Part shown: in pieces, positions 43,005 through 53,485 of the stretch
How the letters are laid out: each line of letters begins with the position of its first letter
Numbering within the stretch: the first letter of the stretch is position 1
From: Gammaproteobacteria bacterium
GTDB taxonomy: Bacteria > Pseudomonadota > Gammaproteobacteria > SZUA-229
Assembly (NCBI GenBank): GCA_029882355.1
Contig: JAOUKV010000006.1
Span: forward strand, 1 to 64,000
DNA length: 64,000 nt
Direction: 5' to 3'
Notes under the pieces: model-generated
Database searches by the model: none
Seen by the model: the letters and a program-made list of their open reading frames with translations, nothing else
What the model was told of the DNA's origin: nothing
Made by a program: the position numbers and the translations under genes

Positions 43005-43008
43005 ATGC

Positions 43009-44166
43009 TTATAAATTTGATTGATGTTTAAGCAGTAGTTTTTCAGCGAGTGAAAGATTAAGGCTGCTCATTTTTTCTTTTACCAATTTAGCTGAATAAC
43101 GTTTTGCTTCTAATAAAGCAAAAAAACTATCTTTATTACCAATGGCTTTGTAATGAAGATAAGCAAGGTAGTAACCCTCGGCAATGTGATAACGATCTTC
43201 CTGAGTTAATGCATCAACCGAACCCTGTAACGAGGGTAGAGTGATCTGGTATTTCTCGCGTAAGCGATCCGGATTGCGAATACTGTCCTGATTGGCTTGA
43301 TAAATATGTGTCCAGAGCAGGGCGTCACCGTAATTATGCTCTGCAAGTTTCCATAACGAATCACCGTAAACAAGTATGTGATTTCGTTCAGTGAAAAAGA
43401 AAGTGTTTTTTTCTTCTTTTTGAATGGCTGATGTTACTGGTGGTGTATGAGTAGTTTGAGCAATATCGGTTGTTGATTGCTCTTCGACTGCGTCAATTGT
43501 TGTAATCTTTTGTTGCACAGGGGCGGCAGGAGTGCTTTGTATTATGATAGGTGCAACGGTTTGTTTAGCGATAATTGGCTGGCTACTTATTTCCTGATCT
43601 TTCTGTGATAAAAAAATAAGTAGGACAATAATAAGTACAGAACCTGTGCCCAAGAAATAAATTTTTCTATTAGATTTTATATTCTGTTTGTCTGCCTGTA
43701 TGGGCTGTGCGAGTTCTGTAGCGGGTACAGATTTTACTGCTTGTTCAGGCATTGCGGTCAGCGCAGCGTGTGCTCTTTCACTGACTTGAGGTGAAGCAGA
43801 TGACGTTACTGGTATAACGGGTCTAACCACGGCCTGGCTGGCTGCTTTTGTCTCACTAACCGGTATGGCTTTGGCTCTATTGGGTTCAATTAATTCACGC
43901 AGTGCTTTAGCCGGTGTGAAGACAACACGATTCTGTGCCTTTATAGTAATGGCCTGGCCTGTTTGTGGGTTACGTCCCTGATGTTCCGCCACGTATTTTA
44001 ATTTGAAAGTACCAAAATTTTGAATTCTAACGCTGCCATCACGCAGTAAACCATCCTTAACGATAAGCAGAACTTCTTTAGCTGCCGCTTTAACTTGCGC
44101 TAGCGGCATCGGCTGGCGTTCAACCAGACCAGTGAGCAGTGTTTGTGTGTAGATGGCGTCTTTCAT
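43009..44166 (-). CDS. HU-type DNA-binding domain fused to a membrane helix and periplasmic LysM-like domain
   Basis: 385 residues. Residues 1-95 are a complete HU/IHF-family domain, including the DNA-intercalating arm (EHQGRNPQTG, proline at 66) and INGRV-like ending VVFTPAKALRELI. A flexible Ala/Pro-rich linker leads to one membrane helix (about 169-187, IYFLGTGSVLIIVLLIFL). After another linker there is a LysM-like region (about 271-320, ILVYGDSLWKLAEHNYG) and a helical tail. The positive charges before the helix predict HU in the cytoplasm and LysM in the periplasm. The architecture suggests a protein that ties the nucleoid to the envelope; this is inference. Its ATG overlaps the stop of the small HU gene by one base (TAATG), so the two are translationally coupled. 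Confidence 0.82.
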   Translation of the reverse strand: MKDAIYTQTLLTGLVERQPMPLAQVKAAAKEVLLIVKDGLLRDGSVRIQNFGTFKLKYVAEHQGRNPQTGQAITIKAQNRVVFTPAKALRELIEPNRAKAIPVSETKAASQAVVRPVIPVTSSASPQVSERAHAALTAMPEQAVKSVPATELAQPIQADKQNIKSNRKIYFLGTGSVLIIVLLIFLSQKDQEISSQPIIAKQTVAPIIIQSTPAAPVQQKITTIDAVEEQSTTDIAQTTHTPPVTSAIQKEEKNTFFFTERNHILVYGDSLWKLAEHNYGDALLWTHIYQANQDSIRNPDRLREKYQITLPSLQGSVDALTQEDRYHIAEGYYLAYLHYKAIGNKDSFFALLEAKRYSAKLVKEKMSSLNLSLAEKLLLKHQSNL

Positions 44167-44450
44167 TATTCCGTTGGCTCGTTCAGCTGGCCTTTCAGTT
44201 TTTTAGCCGTGCGGAAAAATAATTTTTTGTGAGCAGGTATGTCGCACTGGCAGTTTTTACCCGGTAAGTATTGACGTTTTTGTGGAATTTGTTTGCAACC
44301 AAAACTACCAAAATCACGAAGAATAACGCTTTTACCATCGGCAAGATGAAGTGCTATCTCAGAGAAGAATCCCTGAATAATTTTTTTAGCTTCTACCTGA
44401 GTAATACCCTGTCTGGCGGCCAGTAGCTTTACAATCTCGCCTGTAGTCAT
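44166..44450 (-). CDS. Small HU-like DNA-binding protein
   Basis: 94 residues with the HU fold pattern (N-terminal helices, then VILRDFGSFGCKQI). The arm region differs from canonical HU: the RNP tip is replaced by a stretch with LPGKNCQCDIPAHKK, which keeps a proline but adds two Cys. The gene is directly upstream of, and coupled to, the HU-LysM fusion, so it is a likely heterodimer partner of that domain. This is not the housekeeping hupA/hupB type. Confidence 0.78.
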   Translation of the reverse strand: MTTGEIVKLLAARQGITQVEAKKIIQGFFSEIALHLADGKSVILRDFGSFGCKQIPQKRQYLPGKNCQCDIPAHKKLFFRTAKKLKGQLNEPTE

Positions 44451-44573
44451 GCTTCTCTCGCTTTTCCAGGTGGACTGGATTGGTTTAAGAGTTTATATGA
44501 TGAAGAATTCTAGCCTGAAGTGCAAGTGGGACTCATTTCCATGATCACGAATGGTGAATCTGCAAATAGGATT

Positions 44574-50530: not shown

Positions 50531-53485
50531 GTGCGTAAATTGATCTTTGCCTTGGCGCTCGGGGCGATATTAATTCCAAACCATGGATTTACATTGGGTT
50601 TGGGTGAAATTGAAGTCAATTCGTCATTAAATCAAAAGCTTGTAGCTCGTATTGATCTATTGTCAGCGGCGCCAGAGGACGCTGAATCACTGATAGTCAA
50701 GCTGGCATCACGAGAAGAATTTGTTCGTGCTGGCCTGGATCGCCCCGTTGTGCTTGGTTCACTGAAATTTAAAACTTCAGTGGAAGATGATCATGTCTAT
50801 ATTAATGTATTGTCACCAAAACCTATTCGCGAACCTTTTCTGAACTTTTTGGTAGAAGTTGATTGGCCTAAGGGACATTTGATTCGTGAGTACACTATTT
50901 TGCTTGATCCTCCTGTCTTTGCGGGTTCACGCCAGAAATCGGCACCTGTCTCAGGCCGTCCTGCTATGCGTGAATCTACAGGTAGTGCGCCAGTAAGCGT
51001 TCAGTCACCGGTCTCTGATGATTTTCGTCCTGCTGCACAGTCACCTGGTTCTGTTGAGCCTGTAGCTGTCGCCACAGAAGCATTTGCTTCAGAGCCTGTT
51101 CAGCAACAGACTACTTATGCTGCTCCTGGTTATTCTGCTCCATCGTATTCAGCCCCATCGGGTCATCGTATTCAAGCAGGTGATACCGCCTGGAGTATTG
51201 CTAACCGCACGAAACCAGCTTCTGTTTCTACGCAGCAAATGTTGATTGCAATGTTGCGTACCAATCCTGAAGTATTTATCGATGGCAATGTGAATGGTCT
51301 TAAAAAAGGCTATATTTTGCGGGCACCTGATAATGCGACTATCAACGCGATTAATCATGAAGAAGCCATGGCTGCAGTCAGTCAGCAGAATGCTTTGTGG
51401 CGTGAATATCAGCAATCATTGTCCAGTGAGCAGCCTGCTTCAGCCATTGATGAAAATTTCACCGAGTCAGAATATAGCTCTGCTATAAATATGAATGATG
51501 ACTCACGTTTGTCTATCGTGAGTGCGGGTAGTGGTAGTTCTGCTTCTGGAGAAACGAAAGATCCTTCAGAAATGACGGCCGGTGAGTTGCGCGAACAGCT
51601 GGCATTATCACGTGAACGAGTAGAAACAGAGCGTGTAGAAAAGGAAACACTGGAACAGCAAATGGGTTCTTTATCGACTCAAGTCGATAAGATGAAAGGG
51701 CTGATGACTATTGAAGATGATGCCATGGCTGAAATGCAGTCAGTAGGCGATTCATCTGATGAAGCAGCACTGGCTCTCGATGAGGCCAGTGAAAAAATTG
51801 TGGTTGAAGATGTAGTTGCTGAAGAAGAGGTTGTTGAACCGACTGGCAGCGCTGAAGAGCAAGCCATTGATGCATTGGATGCTTTGATAGGTGGTTCAGA
51901 TGATGAAAAAGATTCAGCTGCTGAAGAATTATTTGTTGATGAAACTGATGCTGCTGCGGCCGTAGATGCAGGTCTGGCAACCGAGCAGGAAGTGTTGGAT
52001 GAAATGGCTCCAGCTTCAGCTATACCTGTACCTCAGGAAGACAGTCTTGTTGATACGTTACTAAACAATAGGATGATCCTTGCTATCTTACTGTTGGTTG
52101 TATTGGTTGTTGGCGCTATTGTCTATCTGATTAAACGTCGTCGTGAGAATAATACATCTAGTGATACTGACTCATCAGGTGTCGATATCTTTAGTATTGA
52201 TGAAGAGGCTGCATTAGAAGATGTTGCCGATATGGTTGATGATGAATCGATTGATAACCTGGTGAGCGATGCAGAAGTTGAAGCTTCAATGGCTGAGGCC
52301 GAGGCTGAAGAAGAAGAGTTTGATGCGGAAGCAACTATGATTCTGCCGTCAGGAACTGGCACTGTCGTTGCACCTGCCGCTAGTTTGCAAGCTGAGGTAG
52401 AAGAAGAGGAGCAGGATGATGTATTGGCTGAAGCTGATGTTTATCTGGCTTATGGTATTTATCAGCAGGCAGAAGAGTTGCTGGAAAATGCGATTAAGGA
52501 AAACCCGGATAAAGATTCATACCGGGTCAAACTAGCAGAAACCTATTTTGCAGGTAAGAATGCGGATGCCCTGGCTAAGTTAGGTGTTGAAATGAAACAA
52601 AGGGTGGGCAATTCAGAGTCGGTTGCCTGGACTAAAGTCGCTACCCTGGGTAAAGAGCTTTGCCCAGATGAAGAGGTATTCCAGCAAGCAGATTCGGATG
52701 CGACATTAGATGTGAATGACTTAATGCCGAAGTCACCTGAGCCCATGGATTTTGATCTAGGCGAAGACGATGGTGTCGCTGAACTCGATATGGATTTCGA
52801 CACTCCACTTGAAGAGCCAGCAGATGATGGTGGATTTGAATTACCATCTATGGATCTTGATATGGATGAAACAGCGGTTATTTCTCCCGCAGATTCAGCT
52901 GAGTCTTTGGATGAGCTTGAGTTTGACTTGAGTGAAACTGACGCCATAGAAGAAACACCGTTAGAAGAAACAGCATTAGAAGAAGAGTTCTCGCTGGATA
53001 TAGAAGCTTCTGAACTTGATCTCGGAACTAGCGCTGCTGATGAAAGCCTTGATGCCGGTTTGGATATGGACCTGGATATGGACATGGACATGGGTCTTGA
53101 TATGTCAGCGGACGTTGAGAGTGTAGATGACGCCGAAAGTAGTATGGATTTTGACCTTGATATGTCGGTCGACGATGCTGAGGGAGAAATCGATCTTACT
53201 GACGAAGTTTCTGACTTCGATATGTCGCTAGATGATGCTGAGGGAGAAATCGATTTTACTGAGGAAGCTTCTGACCTGGGTTTGTCAATGGATGATGATC
53301 TTGGTGGTATGGATCTATCTGAGCCTCTAGATGCTGAGGAGGTTAATACCAAGCTTGATTTAGCTAAGGCGTATCTCGATATGGGGGATCATGAAGGTGC
53401 TCGTGATATCCTTGATGAAGTAGTAGCTGGCGGTAATGCTGAGCAGAAGAAAGAAGCTCAGGAGTTAATGGCTCAAGTGAATTAA
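50531..53485 (+). CDS. fimV: FimV-family polar hub protein
   Basis: 984 residues, GTG start with GGGGAAA upstream. FimV binds peptidoglycan and organises the cell pole for type IV pili and chemosensory signalling. Domains: signal peptide; conserved N-terminal FimV domain (LGEIEVNSSLNQKLVARIDL); LysM (about 212-265, IQAGDTAWSIANRT); a coiled coil near 355-390; one membrane helix (about 515-535); a long, very acidic cytoplasmic region containing a TPR-like segment; Asp/Met-rich near-repeats (DMSLDDAEGEIDFTEEASD); and the FimV C-terminal motif (LDLAKAYLDMGDHEGARDIL). The gene is followed by a terminator, then truA, the usual neighbour. Confidence 0.92.
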   Translation: MRKLIFALALGAILIPNHGFTLGLGEIEVNSSLNQKLVARIDLLSAAPEDAESLIVKLASREEFVRAGLDRPVVLGSLKFKTSVEDDHVYINVLSPKPIREPFLNFLVEVDWPKGHLIREYTILLDPPVFAGSRQKSAPVSGRPAMRESTGSAPVSVQSPVSDDFRPAAQSPGSVEPVAVATEAFASEPVQQQTTYAAPGYSAPSYSAPSGHRIQAGDTAWSIANRTKPASVSTQQMLIAMLRTNPEVFIDGNVNGLKKGYILRAPDNATINAINHEEAMAAVSQQNALWREYQQSLSSEQPASAIDENFTESEYSSAINMNDDSRLSIVSAGSGSSASGETKDPSEMTAGELREQLALSRERVETERVEKETLEQQMGSLSTQVDKMKGLMTIEDDAMAEMQSVGDSSDEAALALDEASEKIVVEDVVAEEEVVEPTGSAEEQAIDALDALIGGSDDEKDSAAEELFVDETDAAAAVDAGLATEQEVLDEMAPASAIPVPQEDSLVDTLLNNRMILAILLLVVLVVGAIVYLIKRRRENNTSSDTDSSGVDIFSIDEEAALEDVADMVDDESIDNLVSDAEVEASMAEAEAEEEEFDAEATMILPSGTGTVVAPAASLQAEVEEEEQDDVLAEADVYLAYGIYQQAEELLENAIKENPDKDSYRVKLAETYFAGKNADALAKLGVEMKQRVGNSESVAWTKVATLGKELCPDEEVFQQADSDATLDVNDLMPKSPEPMDFDLGEDDGVAELDMDFDTPLEEPADDGGFELPSMDLDMDETAVISPADSAESLDELEFDLSETDAIEETPLEETALEEEFSLDIEASELDLGTSAADESLDAGLDMDLDMDMDMGLDMSADVESVDDAESSMDFDLDMSVDDAEGEIDLTDEVSDFDMSLDDAEGEIDFTEEASDLGLSMDDDLGGMDLSEPLDAEEVNTKLDLAKAYLDMGDHEGARDILDEVVAGGNAEQKKEAQELMAQVN

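Follow-up and report, generated by a model that had tools for sequence, protein, structure and literature searches.

A small HU protein paired with an HU-transmembrane-LysM protein in Gammaproteobacteria: a candidate anchor between chromosome and cell envelope

The window, a 64,000-nucleotide stretch of a gammaproteobacterial genome, contains two adjacent genes that encode a small HU protein and a larger protein in which an HU domain, a single membrane helix and a LysM fold follow one another. Sequence comparison indicates that the pair is inherited as a conserved two-gene unit in scattered bacteria, and it is predicted to represent an apparently undescribed version of an envelope-chromosome anchor. 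A search of a library of open-access papers gave no description of this HU / HU-TM-LysM pair. Direct physical links between the chromosome and the cell wall have often been proposed and, to our knowledge, few have become known; HubP, a well-studied example, acts via a partitioning protein. The large protein would hold a DNA-binding-type fold inside the cell and a wall-binding-type fold outside it, always in the company of a second HU, so that the question of a tether becomes testable with two small genes. HU is usually a soluble packaging protein, and these genes suggest that it has been recruited to the envelope in Gammaproteobacteria.

Results

The gene pair and its distribution

The small HU gene is the first of the pair and the HU-TM-LysM gene the second, and in the window they overlap by 1 nt within the sequence TAATG, where the small HU gene ends and the large gene starts. 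The features of the locus are as follows.

43005-44573, no strand: presence/absence segment with the pair, between convergent HDAC-like and LysR genes that adjoin in congeners G001 and G005
44166-44450, reverse strand: small HU gene, 94 aa; PF00216 E = 1.2e-17
44223-44294, reverse strand: atypical beta-arm of the small HU, KQIPQKRQYLPGKNCQCDIPAHKK; by alignment YLP replaces the canonical RNP; contains Cys67 and Cys69
43009-44166, reverse strand: HU-TM-LysM gene, 385 aa; PF00216 E = 1.1e-20
43888-44139, reverse strand: HU domain of the large protein, residues 10-93, predicted cytoplasmic, with the canonical arm GRNPQTG
43669-43884, reverse strand: low-complexity linker 1, residues 95-166, pLDDT <50, fast-evolving in relatives
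43606-43662, reverse strand: single transmembrane helix, residues 169-187, IYFLGTGSVLIIVLLIFLS, from hydropathy and a model helix at 171-187
43402-43596, reverse strand: low-complexity linker 2 by composition, residues 191-255, predicted periplasmic, pLDDT <50
43231-43392, reverse strand: LysM domain, residues 259-312, from NCBIfam, the family profile, Pfam matches of the family and structure alignment
43015-43209, reverse strand: conserved C-terminal helical tail, residues 320-384, LTxxDRxxIAxGYYLxYxYY...ALLxAxxYD, from alignments and model helices

A survey of the lineages carrying the pair, proposed in the initial annotation, returned 13 complete homologous loci with both genes present in all of them. 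Twelve are gammaproteobacterial, from at least four families, and one is from a MAG labelled KSB1. The set comprises the window, L021 (a MAG filed as Chromatiales), L022-L028 (genera g3, g7 and g12 of the window's family), L029 (the KSB1-labelled MAG), L068 (family f15), L069 (f102) and L070 (f155); a partial locus was also found at a contig end in G011 (L067). The translationally coupled upstream HU partner noted in the initial annotation proved to be part of a conserved two-gene unit: the small HU gene immediately precedes the large gene, in the same direction, at 13 of 13 complete loci, and the two overlap by 1, 4 or 8 nt at 12 of these, being about 48 bases apart in L029. An apparent loss of the small HU from L070 and L029 was ruled out by a six-frame reading, which located it in both. 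The flanking genes form at least six unrelated sets, indicating that the constant pairing is not carried by the neighbours. The KSB1-labelled copy (L029:941-2608, forward strand) may be a true presence outside Gammaproteobacteria or a binning error.

The pair is rare and dispensable. The family sample of 54 genomes, which is also the whole order sampled, contained 9 carriers; among 369 class genomes about 4 had the pair in full length (the window genome, G050, G154 and G207), the other matches being HU-only or LysM-only. In a phylum sample of 398 genomes it occurred only in the window genome, and none of the six other genomes searched of the window's genus had it, nor did most of the family. 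In congeners G001 (L078) and G005 (L079) the HDAC-like and LysR genes adjoin, separated by a few to about 60 bases, and have no pair between them; these flanks are 83-86% identical. The GC content of the pair is 41.7% compared to a window mean of 45.4%, the 8th percentile among equal slices, which is weakly in line with gain of the pair. In G003, of the same genus, a multihaem-cytochrome-like gene (L080:4800-7300) lies between the HDAC-like and LysR genes, where the window has the pair, and this gap may take up inserts repeatedly.

A phage, plasmid or viral origin was rejected after searches of viral contigs, phages and plasmids gave only HU-length matches and no full-length relative. PADLOC returned no defence-system match for the pair. 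In genus g12 a ParA/MinD-like ATPase gene is convergent with and adjoins the large gene (L062:9322-9978, reverse strand; also in L064 and L066). This gene is not common to the other lineages, and assignment of a function from the neighbours was abandoned.

Architecture of the large protein

The order HU, linker, transmembrane helix, linker, LysM and helical tail is kept throughout the family. The full HU domain described in the initial annotation was recovered with PF00216 at 74 bits, compared to a cut-off of 22.4, and this family was matched by all 12 members of the large-protein alignment. Most members keep the DNA-contacting arm GxNPxTG in the large HU, with little or no variation at G64, P67 and G70 within the family; in the KSB1-labelled copy the arm is altered and the proline is lost. 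The full-length model of the large protein gave a mean pLDDT of 65, as expected because the linkers are long, and placed the HU domain at approximately residues 4-93, a helix at 171-187 and the LysM domain at 261-310, followed by helices to residue 384. Residues 96-125, 127-176 and 186-252 were modelled with pLDDT below 50, in agreement with the long linkers of low complexity first read from the sequence.

The refutation test set for the single membrane helix was whether the hydrophobic stretch is a membrane segment. Residues 169-187 have a KD value of 2.45, compared to 0.89 for the next best segment, and a Wimley-White octanol value of -12.3 kcal/mol, and a comparable single membrane segment is conserved in 12 of 12 large homologs examined. 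Lysine and arginine outnumber aspartate and glutamate just N-terminal of the helix in 10 of the 12, a bias that is consistent with an N-in orientation, which would put the HU end in the cytoplasm and the LysM domain in the periplasm.

The second refutation test of the initial annotation, whether the C-terminal domain matches LysM in a profile search, was passed as well, and both family profile and structure identify a LysM fold. The window copy alone falls under the Pfam PF01476 cut-off (E = 0.051, 14 bits against 20.9), so that "LysM-like", the wording of the initial annotation, was a fair one. NCBIfam LysM proteins match residues 259-303 of the large protein at 6e-8, and PF01476 was matched by 10 of 10 family members at E-values of up to 10, the best being 1.3e-7. 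A comparison of the family profile with solved structures gave Kbp at 2.1e-7, a LysM-domain protein in 6ve2 at 4.4e-7 and TsaP at 1.9e-6. The model of the C-terminal piece (pLDDT 88, pTM 0.83) has a beta-alpha-alpha-beta arrangement at residues 11-60 of the piece, and structure alignment over its residues 1-65 gave Z 8.0-9.2 with the best LysM chains; the Foldseek E-values for this model are modest, the best being 6.9e-3. The nearest solved structures include Kbp together with injection-system or phage baseplate proteins. Kbp and TsaP, which supply the best sequence and structure matches to this LysM domain, differ from the large protein in that neither has an HU domain or this tail. Kbp binds potassium, and its place among the best structural matches means that the LysM fold alone is no proof of a cell-wall ligand.

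The conserved helical tail was not part of the initial annotation. It is conserved together with the LysM domain across the family and matches no named family. A TPR-like identity was considered and rejected, as the structural matches were weak and non-diagnostic, with Z scores of 5-6.7, values that unrelated helical models also attain, and no family name is given. The outer half of the protein also occurs alone: in G352 a 195-aa protein (L071:5740-6324, reverse strand) has a membrane helix, the same type of LysM domain and a sequence related to the start of the tail, and contains no HU domain.

The small HU protein

The small HU of the window matches PF00216 at 64.4 bits (cut-off 22.4), as do all 12 members of the small-HU alignment. 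Its arm differs from the canonical form in being without RNPxTG, and in genera g3 and g7 the aligned arm is about 13 aa shorter. The loss of this motif and the shortening in one clade suggest that the small HU may not grip DNA itself. A cysteine-containing arm had been pointed out as a feature of this protein. The cysteines are indeed present in the window, which has two, but L021 and L069 have one and most other members have none; a cysteine arm or disulfide as the defining feature of the small HU was ruled out. Several of the small HUs in L022-L028 end in a conserved W-[RK]-P-E. The codons of this ending hold a GGAGG-like ribosome site just 5' of the large gene start, so part of the conservation may be translational.

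Phylogeny and selection

In a tree of HU domains the large HUs form one clade (100/100) and the small HUs another (97/97), with the canonical HU, IHF-alpha and IHF-beta of the genome outside both. The pair shares the PF00216 fold with these proteins and, in the model proposed below, the IHF-like pairing of two related subunits, and differs from them in forming clades apart and in having one subunit anchored in the membrane. In the large and the small tree alike, L021 is the sister of the window, with the members of the window's own family grouping elsewhere; support for this is moderate, and the shared placement fits joint transfer of the pair. Distances in the small and large trees correlate with a Mantel r of 0.84, which none of 2000 permutations reached and part of which shared species history can yield.

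Values of dN/dS were calculated for L025 and L026, the least diverged loci, giving 0.021 for the HU domain, 0.020 for the LysM domain and tail, 0.035 for the small HU and 0.27 for the linkers with the transmembrane helix; dS is near saturation here, so only the contrast between regions matters. By this contrast the HU domain, the LysM domain with its tail and the small HU are under purifying selection and the linkers vary freely.

Discussion

The products of the two genes are proposed to form a single nucleoid protein complex anchored in the envelope. In it the small HU and the large protein's HU domain would pair like the subunits of IHF, giving a DNA-binding heterodimer to which the large subunit would supply at least one DNA-gripping arm; a heterodimer is suggested by the asymmetry between the large and small arms together with the invariable pairing of the genes. 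The one membrane helix would hold this heterodimer against the inner membrane on its cytoplasmic side. A long flexible linker in the periplasm would let the LysM domain and helical tail reach peptidoglycan, or a partner bound to it. Cell wall and chromosome, or a subset of the DNA, would in this way be physically linked, which may serve nucleoid positioning or segregation. Such a tether is the simplest reading of the architecture, from which both DNA binding and peptidoglycan binding are predicted. Taken whole, an HU heterodimer at the inner membrane with its LysM domain on peptidoglycan, linking DNA to wall, is the best explanation of the sequences and models and has about an even chance of being correct. 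More specifically, the pair may be a dedicated two-subunit tether that spreads from lineage to lineage with its two genes together, a split HU heterodimer making a direct connection across the inner membrane between chromosomal DNA and peptidoglycan by way of the membrane helix and LysM domain of one subunit. This claim is advanced tentatively, as a serious candidate that falls somewhat short of probable.

The same architecture would fit a membrane-bound regulator resembling ToxR, in which the HU pair binds or bends particular DNA sites, the LysM domain and tail sense the state of the wall and transcription shifts with no mechanical tether. The conserved helical tail could then be the sensory or partner-binding part, and the canonical arm of the large HU would serve such a protein equally. 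However, DNA binding by HU folds is usually not very sequence-specific, IHF being an exception, and no conserved target gene lies beside a pair that is found in many neighbourhoods, which makes a regulator unlikely.

It is also doubtful that the HU domains have been reused for protein interaction or dimerisation, with the complex acting as a polar or divisome envelope scaffold that makes no contact with DNA. There is a precedent in RodZ, where a fold of DNA-binding type serves at the membrane, and the CCDC81-type HU group is proposed to include non-DNA roles. The arm of the small HU is degenerate or shortened, as a scaffold could permit, and all 12 small HUs gave matches to CCDC81-type models (PF18175, best 5.1e-7). 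These matches are sub-threshold, and the large HU retains both its GxNPxTG arm and its core in most members, which argues against the loss of DNA contact. With the CCDC81_bac models (PF18174/PF18175) the small HU of the window scored 14.9 bits against a cut-off of 35 and the large protein had no match; a search of the window's own genome gave nothing over the cut-off, and the model was also weakly matched in E. coli and B. subtilis. Membership of CCDC81_bac was rejected on the low score of the window copy and these weak matches elsewhere. The HU-CCDC81_bac proteins of Bacteroidetes, in the work of Burroughs et al. in Cell Cycle in 2017, reportedly combine a pair of HU domains with a membrane helix and a SPOR domain that binds peptidoglycan, and chromosome partition is the function proposed for them. 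They would resemble the present pair in having two HUs, a membrane helix and a wall domain, but in the window the HUs are on separate polypeptides and the wall domain is LysM, with no SPOR among the families listed for the 12 members.

A role in DNA uptake, a pilus or a mobile element, with the complex receiving or holding incoming DNA at the inner membrane, would suit the patchy distribution, the clean presence/absence site and the match of the LysM profile to TsaP, a pilus-secretin LysM protein, but is very unlikely given that the neighbourhoods have no competence, pilus or mobile genes in common and that the viral contigs, phages and plasmids searched held no full-length relative.

For a tether between DNA and envelope, the nearest working precedent by analogy would be HubP, in which a periplasmic LysM domain is needed for polar localisation and a single transmembrane helix leads to a cytosolic part that places the origin of chr1 at the pole via ParA1 (PMC8789113). 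HubP and FimV, which are polar landmark proteins, share with the large protein a periplasmic LysM domain, one membrane helix and a cytoplasmic part leading to the chromosome (PMC8789113, PMC12918733). The order is reversed, however, the LysM domain being N-terminal in HubP/FimV and C-terminal in the window protein, and HubP/FimV are without HU, HubP reaching DNA through ParA1. By sequence the pair is neither HubP/FimV, from which it is separated by order and domains, nor CCDC81_bac, from which it is separated by the Pfam cut-off and the wall domain. FimV_N was not matched by the window protein or by the 12 members. The window does contain a FimV homolog as a separate gene, at 50531-53002 on the forward strand (FimV_N E = 1.5e-37), approximately 6 kb from the pair.
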